A stretch of 64,000 bases of DNA. Origin: Candidatus Latescibacterota bacterium. Its GTDB lineage: Bacteria; JAAXHH01. Positions 13,295-31,230 of this stretch are shown one piece after another. The number at the start of each line of letters is the position of its first letter. The first letter of the stretch is position 1. A program made the position numbers and the translations under genes. The DNA is taken from NCBI GenBank assembly GCA_022822725.1, contig JAJEAN010000007.1, positions 936,382-1,000,381 of the forward strand, written 5' to 3'. The notes under the pieces are model-generated. The model made no database searches, was not told where the DNA came from, and saw only the letters and a program-made list of their open reading frames with translations.

Positions 13295-14047
13295 ATGGCA
13301 TTCAACAGTCGGCTCAAAGAAGATTTCGACCGCGACGGCTTCGTGCTGCTAAAAGGGTATCTGTCTTCGGCGGAAGCTGCCGAGATCAACAGCAATATCG
13401 ACCGGTTCATCGAAGAGGTGCTTCCAGGAGCGCCGGATACGACGGCCTTCTACGAGGACATAGAGGATCCGTCGTCCATCAAGCGGCTGCAGAACATGGC
13501 TGAACTGGACCCGTACTTCGACGGGCTGTTCGGGTCCTACAATTTCACCGAACTGGCCGGATTCCTGCTCGCGGACGACGTGCTTCCCAAGAACCCGCAG
13601 TGGTTCAACAAACCGGCCAGGGTGGGCGAGGTCACCCCGCCCCACCAGGACGGCTTCTATTTCATGCTGGAACCCAACGAGGCCTTGACCCTGTGGATCG
13701 CGCTGGACGATATCGACGAGGAAAACGGATGCATGCGGTACGTGCGGGGATCGCACCGGCGGGGCATGCGTCCCCACCGCTTGTCGAATGTCCTGGGATT
13801 TTCGCAGGGCGTGTCGGATTTTTCGGACGAAGACCTGGCGCAGGAAGTGGCCATGCGCGCCAGCCCGGGCGACGTCTTCGCCCATCACAGCATGGTCATT
13901 CACCGGGCCGACGCGAACCGGTCCGACCGACGACGCGCGGCCCTTGGCCTGGTTTACTTTGCGGCGCGCGCGAAAAAGGATGAGGAAAAAGCCGAACAAT
14001 ATCGCAAGGAACTCTTCGCCCGGTGGGAAAAAGAAGGCAAGATCTAG
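13295..14047 (+). CDS. Phytanoyl-CoA dioxygenase (PhyH) family protein
   Basis: This 250-residue protein belongs to the PhyH family of Fe(II)/2-oxoglutarate oxygenases. The iron-binding His-x-Asp is in PPHQDGFYFM, the distal histidine is in HHSMVIHRADANRS, and the arginine that binds 2-oxoglutarate follows in SDRRRAALG. The jelly-roll core motif NGCMRYVRGSHRRG is present. Members hydroxylate diverse small molecules; the substrate here is unknown. The ATG is preceded by AGGAG. A likely terminator follows the gene. Confidence 0.9.
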   Translation: MAFNSRLKEDFDRDGFVLLKGYLSSAEAAEINSNIDRFIEEVLPGAPDTTAFYEDIEDPSSIKRLQNMAELDPYFDGLFGSYNFTELAGFLLADDVLPKNPQWFNKPARVGEVTPPHQDGFYFMLEPNEALTLWIALDDIDEENGCMRYVRGSHRRGMRPHRLSNVLGFSQGVSDFSDEDLAQEVAMRASPGDVFAHHSMVIHRADANRSDRRRAALGLVYFAARAKKDEEKAEQYRKELFARWEKEGKI

Positions 14048-16839: not shown

Positions 16840-19083
16840 TCATTTCAACATATCCGCGATATCGCTGTGCCCTGCCTTCTGCGCCCGGGCCAGGGGCGTC
16901 GCCCATTCCGCGGCGCCGCCCCTCGGGTTCGCACCCCGGTCCAACAGGAAACCCGCCAGTTCCCGGTGTCCCCAGTGCGCCGCCCAACCCAGCGGCGTGG
17001 AACACCACTCGTCGTCGACGGCTTCCAGGTCGGCCCCACGGTCCAGCAGCAGGGCGGCTTTCTGCACGTCTCCGATCGCCGCCAGCTTGTGCAGGTAGGT
17101 CACGCCGTGCCAGTTCGCATTATTCGGATCGGCGCCGTGGTCGAAGAACAGGTTCAGCATGTCCAGGACATCTTCGTTGGGATTCATGCTGGCGCCGTTC
17201 AGACTCCAGCCTTTCCTCCGGCGGAACGCGTAGCCCATGTAGTTGTTGGCGTACCACGGCCGGTTCAGTTCGGCGCCCGCGCGGATCAGCATTTCGATGA
17301 TCTCCCTGCTGGCGAAACCGGCCGCCATGCACAGCACCCCGTAGTCCCCTCCGAAATTGGCCAGACCGGGGTCCGCGCCAAGGAGTTCCCCTACCACGGG
17401 TATATTGTCCAGCAATACGTACATGCTGATTTCCGCCGTGGCGCCGTGGCGATACAACAGGTTGATCATTTCCGTGTTATTCTTGCCCAGGGCCTGCGTC
17501 AGCGGATTCCCACTGGATTCCACCTGGGCATTCGGGTCGGCGCCGTGATCCAGGAGCAGTTTCGCCGTATCCAGGTGATTGCCCGCCACGGCTTCGTATA
17601 ATGCATGTCCTCGGGGTGCGTTGCGTTCGGGGGCATTGGGGTCCGCGCCATGATCGAGCAGAAGCTGCACGATTTCCGTATTCCCGTGGCAAGCAGCGCT
17701 GAAGAGCGGAGAATACCTGCAGGTATCCTGATCGGAGGCTGCACTCCGATCCCCGGAGAGCAGTTCCCTTACGCGCCGAATGTCACCCAGGAGGCAGGCG
17801 ACCGTCATGCTGTACTTCGCTCCCCTGGCAATCAGGTATCCGGTCAGGAGCGGATTGGCCAGCCCGTGTCGTTTCCTCGCATGAAACACGGCCAGGTGCA
17901 GGGGCTTGCATCCATCCCACCGGACGGGATCGGGTTCCGCGCCCCGGTCCAGGAGCAACTCGGCCATATCCAGGTTGAACGCTTCAACGGCCGCGTGCAA
18001 AGGGCGGGTGCCCCTTTCATCGCTTGCGTTTACGAGTTCCGGGGAAGCGTCGAAAAACGCACGCGCTTCCGCCAGATCGCCCCTGCGAACGACTTCGCAG
18101 GCGCGTTCGCCCACGGGAGGCGAGTCGTATCTGGATTCGATAGCGTCGGTCAGAAGCCCGGCAATTTCATTGAAACCGCGATCCCTGGCCCGCTCCAGAG
18201 GCGTTACGTGGTATTCCAGCCCCGAGTCCTTCGACGGATTCGCACCGTGTTCGAGCAACAGGCGCACCACATCCGTGTGGCCTTCCCTGGCGGCGAAGTG
18301 CAGCGGCTGGTAGTAGGCCCAGTTACAGTTGGCCAGCCCGGAATCTTCTTTCAGCAATTGCTCCACGCGAACCAGGTCACCCTCCGCAGACGCCAGCAGC
18401 ATGTCCCACACTTTGTCTGGCTGGCCATCCATGAAATTTCCCTGCTCGTTCGAAAAATCAGGTCGTATCCATTTCATAATGCGGTCTCCGAATGCATGGT
18501 CTGATGACGGCGCGAAATCTTCAAGGTCTTTTGACAACACGCGGAGCAGTTGCGGCTTCAGCTTGCCCCTCGCTTCGTACAGCCTCTTGCGCACCGTGCC
18601 CGGTCTCAAGTCCATGAATCGCGCGATTTCAGCCGCCGAATAGTCTCCAATATACCGCAGTAACGTTACTTCTCTTAAAGTTTCGGGCAATGCCGCGACC
18701 GTATTACGTACCTTTTCACTGATATCTCTGCGCGCTACCCGTTCCAGCGGATCTTCACGCTCCGATTCCAGGTCACCCCTCATGGGAACAAGACAGCTAT
18801 GCCTGCTTCTATTGAACCGGTAACACTGCCACTGAATTATCCTTCTGAGCCAGGCCGGAAACGAATCGGGCTCACGCAGCGACCGGATGTTCTGCCAGGC
18901 CGCTAAAAAACCTTCCTGCGTGGCATCCTCAGCAAGGTGACGTTCTCCCAGCAGACTCAGCGCGTATCCGAAGGCCATGTCCTGGTAGTGAACCACCAAC
19001 TTCCCGAAGGCGAGGCTGCGATCCGAATCGGGAATCGTTGTATCGGTGGAAATCTGTATATACTGTTTGAGATCGTGGGTCAT
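16840..19083 (-). CDS. ECF sigma factor fused to an ankyrin-repeat array
   Basis: The protein is 747 residues. Residues 25-95 are sigma-70 region 2 (MAFGYALSLLGERHLAEDAT, then FPAWLRRI), which binds core polymerase and the -10. Residues 128-180 are region 4 with a helix-turn-helix (YSAAEIARFMDLRPGTVRKR). From about 221 to the end there are roughly a dozen ankyrin repeats such as PLHFAAREGHTDVVRLLLEH, several of them degenerate. ECF factors are usually about 180-200 residues and use a separate anti-sigma factor; none is adjacent here. The ankyrin part could hold or release the sigma domains in response to a partner, but that is inference. There is no transmembrane segment, so it should be cytoplasmic. 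The ATG has no strong ribosome-binding site. Confidence 0.9.
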   Translation of the reverse strand: MTHDLKQYIQISTDTTIPDSDRSLAFGKLVVHYQDMAFGYALSLLGERHLAEDATQEGFLAAWQNIRSLREPDSFPAWLRRIIQWQCYRFNRSRHSCLVPMRGDLESEREDPLERVARRDISEKVRNTVAALPETLREVTLLRYIGDYSAAEIARFMDLRPGTVRKRLYEARGKLKPQLLRVLSKDLEDFAPSSDHAFGDRIMKWIRPDFSNEQGNFMDGQPDKVWDMLLASAEGDLVRVEQLLKEDSGLANCNWAYYQPLHFAAREGHTDVVRLLLEHGANPSKDSGLEYHVTPLERARDRGFNEIAGLLTDAIESRYDSPPVGERACEVVRRGDLAEARAFFDASPELVNASDERGTRPLHAAVEAFNLDMAELLLDRGAEPDPVRWDGCKPLHLAVFHARKRHGLANPLLTGYLIARGAKYSMTVACLLGDIRRVRELLSGDRSAASDQDTCRYSPLFSAACHGNTEIVQLLLDHGADPNAPERNAPRGHALYEAVAGNHLDTAKLLLDHGADPNAQVESSGNPLTQALGKNNTEMINLLYRHGATAEISMYVLLDNIPVVGELLGADPGLANFGGDYGVLCMAAGFASREIIEMLIRAGAELNRPWYANNYMGYAFRRRKGWSLNGASMNPNEDVLDMLNLFFDHGADPNNANWHGVTYLHKLAAIGDVQKAALLLDRGADLEAVDDEWCSTPLGWAAHWGHRELAGFLLDRGANPRGGAAEWATPLARAQKAGHSDIADMLK

Positions 19084-27268: not shown

Positions 27269-28225
27269 TCACACGCGATGGTAGTAGAAGGCGAGTTCCT
27301 CGTAATCCACGTTGCTCTTCAGCGTCAGGCGCAGGGGGCTGGATACCCGGGTGATGATGTCCTTGTCGGCGAGCCATTCGCACACGGTGGTCACGCCCCG
27401 GAGATTCATCTGGTTGTCGAACCAGGTCTCGATCTCCGTAACCGACCGGGCCGAACCTTCTTCTTCGAGATAATCGAGAATCGGCTGGAACAATGCCGTC
27501 ACGCGGTCGGTGAGATAGGCGTCGATCCGCGCGAGCGCTTCCCCCACCGCCTCCTCGGTCTTCGGCCGATCGATCAGGTCCGTGTACACGGCGTTAAAAA
27601 ACCCGGGATTGAGTTCGAGCGCCTGCTGGATGACTTCGCGGCCCGCGAGCTGGTCGTGCATGAAGACTTCGATCTGCGCGAGACCGTTGATACAGTACAT
27701 GATGTAGTGAAAGGCATAGTGGAGATCGCGACGGACATGCAACCACTTCTCGGCCTTGTACAGGGTGGGGATCACGTGGGAGGCCGCGTGCATGAGCTGA
27801 ACCTGGCGGTCTCTCGCGTTTAACGCCCGAATACCGTCGTAGAGGTCCCTGATCGATTCGTCGTGGGTGAACAGCAGGCGGCTTTGGGCCAGGGCCGAGT
27901 GCATGAAAGAGCTCTGCAATCCGCCTTCGATCATTTTCCTGAATGCGGAGCGCGGCTGCATGAATACGTGAATGTACACGTCGTTTTCGAGCAGTGCGGC
28001 GCCTTCCGATACCTCGTCGTCATCCTTGCTTTCCTTCCTGAACAGTTTCTTGTCGTCCCGCGTTATGACGATCAGGTCGATGTCCGACTTCTCCCATACC
28101 CGGTCGGCGGAGAGGCTGCCGAAGAGTATGGCGGCCAGGACGTGGCGATCTTCCCGCGCCTTGCTCACGAAAGCGTCCAGGGCCGACTCGAATTGCCGTT
28201 CAACTGCCGAGGGCGGATTTTGCAT
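27269..28225 (-). CDS. Nucleotidyltransferase-domain protein
   Basis: The 318-residue protein has the Pol-beta-type nucleotidyltransferase signature [19 protein letters not shown], with the GS and Asp-x-Asp residues that bind nucleotide and metal, at about residues 35-55. The rest is helical and may recognise a substrate. Such proteins can transfer nucleotides to small molecules, proteins or tRNA; the target is unknown. I use ATG 28225 because the longer frame runs through the upstream promoter. It is the first gene of the uvrA-polB run, which may point to a role in stress or damage responses (inference). Confidence 0.8.
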
Positions 28226-28305
28226 TGGATACACCGGGCAGATTGGCCGAAAAGGATAAGGCACATACCGCAAAACCGCGACTGGTCCGAGGATGTGCCC
28301 GTTTT

Positions 28306-28334
28306 TATATAACCCGCGCCGCCGCAATCGTCAA
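28306..28334 (-). promoter_or_regulatory. Sigma70-type promoter candidate for the nucleotidyltransferase-uvrA-polB run
   Basis: On the minus strand TTGACG (28334-28329), a 17-base spacer and TATATA (28311-28306) are followed about 80 bases later by the nucleotidyltransferase start. No LexA-like box is evident to me. Confidence 0.6.
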
Positions 28335-28472
28335 TCTGCAAATACGTGACGCGGAGCGACGAAAACCTTGATATGCGGACGCGATTTAGGCTACTATGCC
28401 CTGAGGCCCGCGTACCGGCCCAGGGGATATCTCCAACACGGAACAGCCAAAACATAACCGGAGGATGCTGCA

Positions 28473-30041
28473 GTGCCTGCATCGCCATCTACGGACGATT
28501 CGTCCCGGGTCCGGACCTTACTGGCCCACAGGGGAAGGCTGGCCTCCCTATTACGTCCCGATCCGACTTTGTTTGAACGGATTGGCGGCCGGTCCGTCGT
28601 CGCCCGTATCATCGACGGCCTGTACGACCGGATCGAGGACGATGACAGCCTGCGGGCCATGTTTACGCGTACCCTGACCTCCGAGCGCATGAAGCAGAAG
28701 GCGTTCATGGAGGAGTGGATGGGCGGCGAGCCGGACTACACGCGCCACCACGCCTACGGCGGCATCCGAAACCGGCACGGACATATCCATATTACACGGG
28801 CATCCGCCGACCGGTGGCTTTCGCATATGTCCGCTTCCCTGCGGGATCACATCGGCGAGGAACCGCTCGTGGAGGAGGTGCTCGACACGCTCAGGCCTCT
28901 CGCCCACGGACTCGTCAACGAGGAGAAGCCCGTCCGAAACAAGTGGGAAATGAGATGTCACCGGGAGAAGCGGTGGAGACAGCCGGCCAAGATGGCGGCC
29001 AGGGGCCAGGTGGAAGCGTTGAAGCGGCGACTGGATGAGGAACCCGGTATACTGGATGATCCCCGCCACGGCGCGATCATCCTCGGCGAAGCGGCGTCAA
29101 GGGGCCATACGCCGGTAGTGGCGCTGCTGCTGGATCATGGGGTGGACGTGAACATACCGTCCGCCCATGCAAGCGATATCATGATGACCGCCCACTGCGC
29201 CGCACGGAGCAGGAAGAAAGAGGAAACCGCCGATTTTCTGCTGGAACGCGGCGCCGTGTACGACGTCTTCAGCGCCTGTTTCCTCGGCGACCTGACCCGG
29301 GTTTCCGAGCTGCTGGAGGAGGAACCCGGCCTGGTCAATGCACACGACCCCGCCTGCGACCTGCTGCCCGTGACGCCCTTGCACCATGCCGTGTACGGCG
29401 GGCATGAACAAGTCGCAAGTTTCCTGTTTGACCGGGGCGCCGAGACCGGTGTGAACAGCACGGCCCTGGTCGGCTACGCCGCGGGGCACGGGCAAACAAC
29501 CCTGGTCCGGTTGTTACTGGAACACGGTGCGGACGCCACGAGGATCGGTTGCGGCCGATGGGTACTGGATGACGAAGAGGCTGCCCTGCTTATCGCCCGT
29601 GGCGCCGATGTCAACTACCCGGAAGGCAATTGGATCTGGACGGCCTGTACCGGGAACAACAGCCAGCGGGACGATCCCGCCTATGTACAGGCCTTACTGG
29701 ACAGGGGAGCCCGGATCGACACGGTGCTGCGCGGCGCCGGGGCCCTGCACTTTGCCGCAAAGGCCGGATTCACGGGAGTCATGGAAGTGCTGCTGGACAA
29801 CGGGGCACCGGTCGACGCACCGAGCGAAAAGGGCGAGACGCCCCTGTTTTACGCGTTGAAGGCGGGACCCAGGGCGGACATGGTGAAGTCTGTCGATCTG
29901 TTACTTTCCCGTGGCGCGGCCCCGACCCAGGAAGATAGCCAGGGCAAGACGCCCCTCGCCATTGCCCGTCGAATGAAGCGTCCCGACAGGGAACGCATCG
30001 TAGCACTGTTCGAAGCCGCTATTCCTCTTGCGACGGCGTAA
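28473..30041 (+). CDS. Truncated haemoglobin fused to ankyrin repeats
   Basis: The protein is 522 residues. Residues about 32-140 form a truncated (2/2) haemoglobin of the group II/trHbO type: FERIGGRSVVARIIDGLYD (Tyr B10 at 51), the haem-proximal histidine expected at H102 in RNRHGHIHIT, and TrpG8 at 115 in DRWLSHM. From about 165 to the end are ankyrin repeats, for example AAKAGFTGVMEVLLDNGAPV. Group II globins bind oxygen or NO; here the globin may gate binding of the ankyrin part to a partner, which is inference. I use GTG 28473 with GGAGG upstream. The 3' end overlaps the convergent ankyrin gene by 23 bases. Confidence 0.88.
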   Translation: MPASPSTDDSSRVRTLLAHRGRLASLLRPDPTLFERIGGRSVVARIIDGLYDRIEDDDSLRAMFTRTLTSERMKQKAFMEEWMGGEPDYTRHHAYGGIRNRHGHIHITRASADRWLSHMSASLRDHIGEEPLVEEVLDTLRPLAHGLVNEEKPVRNKWEMRCHREKRWRQPAKMAARGQVEALKRRLDEEPGILDDPRHGAIILGEAASRGHTPVVALLLDHGVDVNIPSAHASDIMMTAHCAARSRKKEETADFLLERGAVYDVFSACFLGDLTRVSELLEEEPGLVNAHDPACDLLPVTPLHHAVYGGHEQVASFLFDRGAETGVNSTALVGYAAGHGQTTLVRLLLEHGADATRIGCGRWVLDDEEAALLIARGADVNYPEGNWIWTACTGNNSQRDDPAYVQALLDRGARIDTVLRGAGALHFAAKAGFTGVMEVLLDNGAPVDAPSEKGETPLFYALKAGPRADMVKSVDLLLSRGAAPTQEDSQGKTPLAIARRMKRPDRERIVALFEAAIPLATA

Positions 30042-31230
30042 TCCCTTCCAGGTAGGACACCAACGCTTCCCGCGCAGGCGTTGAACCATGAATTTCAATC
30101 CCGACCCGCGCCCACACCAGCGGCGTCGTGCCGTGTTCATCGTCCGTCGCGCCTGGATCTGCGCCGGCCTCGACGAGTGCCTTCGCGATCTCCACGTCCC
30201 CGCACAGATGCAAGGGCGTCTGACCTGAATCCGCCCGGGCGTTCGCGTCCGCACCCCAGCCAAGCAGCGCATTGACGGTCTCTTCCTGCCCATGCTGCAC
30301 CGCGGCGTGCAGCGGCGTGCCCACCACGGCGTGAACCCCGATCTTTCCTCGGTATCCGATCAGATCCACTTCGGTCTCTCGAAGTTTTTCTAGCCGATCC
30401 GTCCGTCCAAGCGCGGCAAGTTGACAGGCGTCGGCCGGCGCACCGCGGTCGATCAGGTAATCCGCCAGACCGCGGCAACGATCTCCACGGCCTATCGCAG
30501 TGCCGAGCGGCGTGTTGCCTTCGCAGTCTCGCGTATCCAGCTGCGCTCCATGGTCGAGCAGGATGCCTGCCGTTTCCGCGGACACGGCCACGTGAAGCGG
30601 CGGTTCTCCGCCCAGTCCCGGCCGCGATGCGGCTTCCGGATCGTCCGCCAGGATCGCCGAAACGCGGCGGACGTCGTCCAGCAGGCATGCGGCATGGATA
30701 TCGACTTGGGCGCCGCGTTCCCGCAGCAACGCGGCCGCTTCCATGTGACCCCAGTGCGCGGCAAGGTGCAGGGCCGTCCATCCGCCGTAGGTGTCCGTAC
30801 CGCCGTCTGGTTCCGCCCCGCTATCCAGCAAGAGACTGATCATGCCGGCCTGGCCCCGTTCGGCCGCCAGCTGTATAGGCGTGGGCAAACCTCCCCACCG
30901 GGGATGGGACACCGCGTCATTTACGATTCCACCATCCTGTTTCAGCACCTTCGCGGCGGCTGTCCTGTCGCTACGCCAGATGGCACTGCGCAGCCGGCGA
31001 CGGTTCACTTCCCGGCGGAGGACGGGCCAACTCGGGAATCCGTAACTCCGCGCAATGACCAGTTGGGCGTCGGTCAGTTTGGCCGTGGAAGGATCAATCG
31101 TACGAGGGTGCGCGGCAAAGACTTTAAGCGCGTCTGCGTCACCCGAACGAAATGCATTGAGGAGTTCCCTCGCCTGGGTTTTGAGCTGATCCAGGTCGGG
31201 ATCCAGGGGAAGCTTGCGAGGATTGTTCAT
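30019..31230 (-). CDS. Ankyrin-repeat protein with the shared N-terminal module
   Basis: The 403-residue protein begins with LPLDPDLDQLKTQARELL and, some 40 residues later, DAQLVIARSYGFPSWPVLRR. This N-terminal module recurs in the ankyrin proteins at 49590, 50981 (weaker) and 54983. Residues about 110-400 are ankyrin repeats (PIQLAAERGQAGMISLLLDS, TALHLAAHWGHMEAAALLRE). There is no signal peptide or membrane segment. Ankyrin arrays bind proteins; the partner is unknown. It converges with and overlaps the globin-ankyrin gene by 23 bases. Confidence 0.88.
   Translation of the reverse strand: MNNPRKLPLDPDLDQLKTQARELLNAFRSGDADALKVFAAHPRTIDPSTAKLTDAQLVIARSYGFPSWPVLRREVNRRRLRSAIWRSDRTAAAKVLKQDGGIVNDAVSHPRWGGLPTPIQLAAERGQAGMISLLLDSGAEPDGGTDTYGGWTALHLAAHWGHMEAAALLRERGAQVDIHAACLLDDVRRVSAILADDPEAASRPGLGGEPPLHVAVSAETAGILLDHGAQLDTRDCEGNTPLGTAIGRGDRCRGLADYLIDRGAPADACQLAALGRTDRLEKLRETEVDLIGYRGKIGVHAVVGTPLHAAVQHGQEETVNALLGWGADANARADSGQTPLHLCGDVEIAKALVEAGADPGATDDEHGTTPLVWARVGIEIHGSTPAREALVSYLEGITPSQEE

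Follow-up and report, generated by a model that had tools for sequence, protein, structure and literature searches.

Why would a truncated haemoglobin be joined in one chain to a long array of ankyrin repeats? This question is raised by a gene of Candidatus Latescibacterota in the stretch of DNA analysed here (64,000 nucleotides, hereafter the window), which a sequence-only reading took to encode a gas-sensing adaptor. The open reading frame lies where that reading had placed it, and it lays out a short extension, a group II truncated haemoglobin, a linker of ~25 residues, and an ankyrin array, in that order:

28368..28397, plus strand: promoter-like TTGATA-N18-TACTAT (one found by the scan, 0.2 expected)
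28460..28465, plus strand: ribosome-binding site GGAGGA, 7 nt 5' of the GTG (GAGGAT invariant across the genus)
28473..30041, plus strand: globin-ankyrin fusion gene, GTG start at 28473, stop at 30041, 522 amino acids
28473..28553, plus strand: N-terminal extension, residues 1-27; HRG (19-21), its one non-variable part, is shared with the fusions of a second phylum
28566..28913, plus strand: group II truncated haemoglobin domain, residues 32-147 (Pfam Bac_globin, E 6.8e-19)
28923..28997, plus strand: linker, residues 151-175, with a helix predicted at 157-176
28995..30026, plus strand: ankyrin array, residues about 175-518 (Pfam Ank_2 and predicted model)

The GTG start is supported because the GGAGGA 7 bases upstream is conserved in the genus. 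In the upstream alignment, CTTGAT and TACTxTG columns are retained in most genus orthologues, and no regulatory palindrome is evident. An assembly artefact or a frame join can be ruled out, as independent assemblies yield 12 full-length orthologues with the same single frame. No signal sequence was seen by eye, and the protein is probably cytoplasmic.

The globin half and its predicted haem pocket

The N-terminal half matches Bac_globin well above the Pfam cut-off, and among solved sequences it comes nearest to group II truncated haemoglobins, above all to 2bkm of Geobacillus (E 4.6e-18). A predicted model of this domain alone (pLDDT 87) adopts the 2/2 fold of that group. Foldseek placed group II proteins in its top rows (TM 0.78-0.83 by query length), and VIA-align gave Z 17.9-19.0 for a dozen group II truncated haemoglobins, the best being Z 19.0 over 123 residues at an rmsd of 2.0. 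Group II 2/2 globins match the fold best, by a wide margin over 3/3 globins, and Bac_globin is the only globin match in Pfam, so that no 3/3 sensor globin of the globin-coupled sensor type was found. The codons of the pocket residues are:

28623-28625, plus strand: Tyr51 (B10)
28683-28685, plus strand: Glu71 (E7)
28695-28697, plus strand: Gln75 (E11)
28776-28778, plus strand: His102 (F8), the haem ligand position
28815-28817, plus strand: Trp115 (G8)

In the alignment with B. subtilis 1ux8, these residues correspond to Tyr25 (Tyr51), Thr45 (Glu71), Gln49 (Gln75), His76 (His102), and Trp89 (Trp115), which agrees with the haem histidine and the G8 tryptophan first noted from the sequence; the helix names are those that we take to apply to the 1ux8 residues. 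The proximal His, Trp G8, and Tyr B10 expected of a group II truncated haemoglobin are thus all present. Y51, Q75, H102, W115, and Phe64 are invariant in the 12 full-length orthologues, and Y51, H102, W115, and the GG motif remain so in 23 rows, when 11 stand-alone globins are added. Known members of the group (M. tuberculosis HbO 1ngk, B. subtilis YjbI 1ux8, Geobacillus 2bkm, and B. anthracis 5v3t) have the same fold and share with the fusion the F8 His, B10 Tyr, G8 Trp, GG motif, and the RH at the proximal ligand, and Gln at E11 is as in 1ux8. However, they are single-domain proteins, whereas the fusion adds the HRG extension and an ankyrin array of ~345 residues and has Glu at E7 and AYG instead of GHP. 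According to the alignment with stand-alone globins, AYG replaces the usual group II GHP before the F helix and is followed by RHxHIHI; in the window the latter reads RHGHIHI (28773-28793), with H104 and H106 just past the haem ligand and invariant in 12/12 orthologues.

Judged by its residues, the distal pocket TyrB10/GlnE11/TrpG8 is of the oxygen-avid type, a set common to B. subtilis 1ux8, whose structure is titled 'oxygen-avid'. The globin therefore probably binds haem and would be expected to have a high affinity for O2. Haem can be made by this organism, as a ferrochelatase is encoded in the genome (E 1.3e-86), and the fusion is the only Bac_globin match in its 3.8 Mb, i.e., its sole truncated globin. 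A haem-less globin that merely caps the ankyrin array structurally would fit the change from GHP to AYG, a region that is also the least certain part of the predicted model (low-confidence loop 90-99). Nevertheless, the invariance of the F8, B10, E11, and G8 residues and Phe64 in the orthologues makes such a cap very improbable.

The pocket also bears on the proposed gas-sensing adaptor, in which the haem ligand would alter ankyrin binding and a single chain would act as an O2 or NO switch. The order of domains favours it, as globin-coupled sensors likewise carry a globin first and a protein-binding or other partner module after it (PMC1457004). However, known globin-coupled sensors have 3/3 globins and variable signalling outputs, whereas the fusion has a 2/2 globin and ankyrins; its chain contains no kinase, cyclase, or regulator domain according to Pfam. 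In addition, globins with high affinity are usually redox enzymes and sensors usually have low affinity (PMC4720485), which sits poorly with an oxygen-avid type of pocket. What stands of the original proposal is the joining of a globin to ankyrins; the sequence itself reveals neither a ligand-dependent effect nor a partner or regulator, and we regard the switch as possible but doubtful.

Distribution, selection, and origin of the fusion

As the sequence-only reading had suggested, we looked for the same fusion in related genomes. Of 16 genomes of the phylum, all 12 from the organism's genus carry it, as do G013, a member of the same family, and G015, a member of the same order; no copy was found in G012 or G014. 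The copy of G011 is split across two contigs, and that of G007 is frameshifted near its end. Among named records, close copies come from Candidatus Latescibacterota or from bins that carry the label Gemmatimonadetes. Comparison of the window copy with ten orthologues gave dN/dS values of 0.10-0.14 for the globin, 0.12-0.18 for the linker plus ankyrin part, and 0.22-0.40 for the N-terminal 27 residues; purifying selection acts on both halves.

Outside the organism's phylum, the fusion was not found in a 384-genome sample centred on the organism. Other long globin-bearing frames from that search (in G260, G110, G100, G043, G191, G142, G278, G262, and G307) are not globin-ankyrin fusions: several turned out to be spurious upstream frames, while two are double globins and a further one carries TPR repeats. 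The last, from G307 (L095:829-1611, minus strand), has Bac_globin and then TPR repeats after a signal-like N-terminus, and the exported-looking proteins of G142 and G278 have two tandem truncated-globin domains (L092:836-1954, L092:2209-3342; L093:1010-2083). Viral contigs held no relative of the fusion, and no plasmid record covered 80% of the query, the matches listed being ankyrin-only or globin-only.

A search of 84 genomes of a second phylum, that of G054, which may, at a guess, be Poribacteria, identified two fusions in one genus (G391, L133:4450-6183, and G390, L134:5033-6769). Their frames encode 578 and 579 amino acids, are 35-36% identical to the query over residues 19-495, and contain Bac_globin with E values of 4.7e-15 and 5.4e-17. 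They have the same domain order as the window fusion, an ankyrin part of the same family, and the HRG extension. As the fusion is retained throughout the sampled genus and recurs in a distant second phylum, the combination is real and maintained by selection. In the second-phylum proteins, F8, B10, and G8 are again His, Tyr, and Trp, whereas E11 is occupied by Leu and E7 by Gly; the high-affinity pocket is therefore not universal, and the loss of the E11 Gln would fit a weaker-binding sensor there.

The second phylum also contains the ankyrin half as a stand-alone protein of about 390 amino acids (e.g., L145:4995-6170, with 50-odd relatives), mostly 34-41% identical to the ankyrin half of the fusion and single-copy in most of its genomes. 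In contrast to the fusion, it has no globin, and its loops differ (CRGD instead of CTGNN). A tree of the ankyrin half separates 14 fused from 12 stand-alone rows by one branch (100/99), and in the globin-half tree the fused rows cluster at 90/91, under the starred level. Both trees fit one fusion event followed by transfer or loss, which is the simplest reading; it falls short of proof because the branches are long and the trees have no outside root.

It could be argued that the fusion is a loose one, in which the globin is an ordinary truncated haemoglobin, the ankyrin half keeps its old job, and only their expression is tied. The single-copy stand-alone ankyrin proteins and the common occurrence of group II globins on their own are consistent with this idea. 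However, the joined form is retained across the genus and in two phyla, and fused ankyrins have common positions that are missing from the stand-alone ones; a loose fusion is hence unlikely.

In 6/6 loci of one family (f42), the stand-alone ankyrin gene lies directly downstream of two tandem PhyH dioxygenase genes and near Antibiotic_NAT. The cluster (L141-L146) comprises the two PhyH genes, the stand-alone ankyrin gene, and the Antibiotic_NAT acetyltransferase gene, with a small Pfam-less gene in 4/6. Poribacteria genomes are known to have many PhyH genes (PMC3909097). The window has a PhyH gene as well (13295-14047), but it is only weakly like those of the stand-alone ankyrin loci (27% over 75 residues) and therefore does not reproduce their cluster. 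An APH-type kinase gene starts 4 bp after the second-phylum fusion. Genes of three classes that also occur among aminoglycoside-modifying enzymes (APH kinase, nucleotidyltransferase, and acetyltransferase) lie beside relatives of this ankyrin family (L133:3519-4442, L134:6777-7694, window 27269-28327, and L145:6203-6949), which may be chance.

The ankyrin array and its surroundings

Pfam finds Ank_2 in five stretches of the fusion (E 7.9e-39), and the whole-chain model (pLDDT 86) has ankyrin helices beginning at about residue 180, with ankyrins and DARPins as structure matches. Both lines of evidence give several consecutive repeats, and the extent of the array accords with the 'about 350 residues' first estimated. 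Matches to NCBIfam MzaA and Legionella Ank families are ankyrin-only and far below the cut-off, and a role in defence was rejected, as the PADLOC matches are confined to the ankyrin repeats. Pfam shows no reductase domain in the chain, which sets it apart from flavohaemoglobin-type NO dioxygenases; a separate reductase could still serve it. Two loops stand out:

29340..29393, plus strand: ankyrin loop AHDPACDLLPVTPLHHAV (290-307), with A290, D292, A294, D296, and H305 in fused proteins of both phyla
29646..29684, plus strand: ankyrin loop CTGNNSQRDDPAY (392-404), with N395, R399, and Y404 specific to fused proteins

The five residues of the first loop are absent or rare in stand-alone ankyrin relatives. 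In total, 23 ankyrin positions are identical in the fused proteins of both phyla and rare in their stand-alone relatives, and they cluster at 290-307 and 392-407; such a pattern would be expected of a fused array with fixed contacts of its own. These conserved loops suggest that the array docks to a specific partner, although the same positions could form a contact face between globin and ankyrins, which would suit a gas-sensing adaptor.

The genes on both sides of the fusion are:

27269..28327, minus strand: Polbeta-fold nucleotidyltransferase gene (Pfam), divergent neighbour
30019..31230, minus strand: ankyrin protein gene, convergent neighbour, whose 3' end shares 23 bp with that of the fusion

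Both stay beside the fusion in most of the genus, where a block of DNA polymerase B, uvrA, nucleotidyltransferase, fusion, and convergent ankyrin genes is intact, and joint action is a candidate only. Outside the genus the block is not kept, the fusions of G013 and G015 having different neighbours; that of G013 faces a methionine sulfoxide reductase (PMSR) gene (L106:4824-5474) in convergent orientation. No neighbour recurs between the phyla, and therefore none is taken as firm evidence. Neither a partner or reductase gene nor a secretion gene adjoins the fusion.

At least nine ankyrin genes lie within the 64 kb window between 16840 and 56503, starting at 16840, 28473, 30019, 36858, 39273, 48425, 49590, 50894, and 54983. 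The first is the sigma-ankyrin protein (16840-19083, minus strand, 747 amino acids), which is real as first described, with Sigma-70 regions 2 and 4 and a long ankyrin array, and in G004 and G007 it is retained (78-79% identity), again upstream of that block of genes. Like the fusion, it has its array behind an unrelated N-terminal domain, but the array is a different one and follows sigma-70 regions, not a globin. Ankyrin arrays thus stand behind both a globin and a sigma-70 protein here; that they serve as the output of several sensors, as was suggested, would follow from domain order only.

This abundance (29 Ank_2 matches in the source genome vs 37-43 in most genus-mates) invites the view that the fusion is a sponge-symbiont protein acting at or near host cells, with the globin clearing host NO. 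Sponge-associated Latescibacterota do have ankyrin and other eukaryote-like proteins (PMC12993501). However, the protein has no signal sequence or adjoining secretion gene, and a sponge origin of these assemblies, though plausible, is absent from their records. A host-directed function therefore appears improbable.

A proposed tethered haem protein and its significance

The reading that we tentatively favour, at somewhat less than even chances, is an oxygen-avid haem module docked through its ankyrins to a cytoplasmic partner. The N-terminal globin would bind O2 tightly and carry out haem chemistry with O2, i.e., NO dioxygenation, peroxide reduction, or O2 supply; the array behind it would hold it to one particular protein. 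In its favour are the globin match and fold, the invariant F8, B10, E11, and G8 residues, the selection on both halves, the ferrochelatase, a two-phylum fusion that fits one origin, the clean split of fused from stand-alone ankyrins, and the 23 fused-specific positions. The O2-using PhyH dioxygenases beside the stand-alone relative, though not the window gene, add an oxygen-linked setting. Against it count the lack of an adjoining partner or reductase gene, the E11 Leu and E7 Gly of the second phylum, and AYG in place of GHP. We place tethered haem chemistry above a ligand-switched adaptor because of the oxygen-avid-like pocket and the rule relating affinity to function (PMC4720485).

The combination of a truncated haemoglobin with ankyrins is the new point, as both domains are well known separately; no report of it was found in the literature searched, whose coverage was incomplete, and domain databases may list the architecture. 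Also new is the same fusion in one genus of a second phylum that has the stand-alone ankyrin half. A 2006 census recognised flavohaemoglobins and globin-coupled sensors as globin chimeras, both of them 3/3 (PMC1457004). The truncated-haemoglobin nitrate reductase of raphidophytes, mentioned in a review (PMC3820574), is a chimera like the fusion, but its partner is a reductase. It is conceivable, though we hold the idea loosely, that a new kind of haem-protein adaptor is represented here, a truncated haemoglobin permanently wired to a scaffold of ankyrins and serving either to switch or to supply a specific O2- or NO-using partner; it would have arisen once and be common to two ankyrin-rich phyla.

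What most truncated haemoglobins do physiologically is unsettled, and the surveys consulted describe single-domain proteins, the raphidophyte reductase chimera aside. A conserved docking array would offer a handle on this problem, as the partner of the ankyrin half, for which the array could be used as bait, would tell which process the globin serves. The fusion further shows that these uncultured bacteria do not keep ankyrin arrays only as free host-interaction proteins but also attach them to putative haem-binding or regulatory domains.
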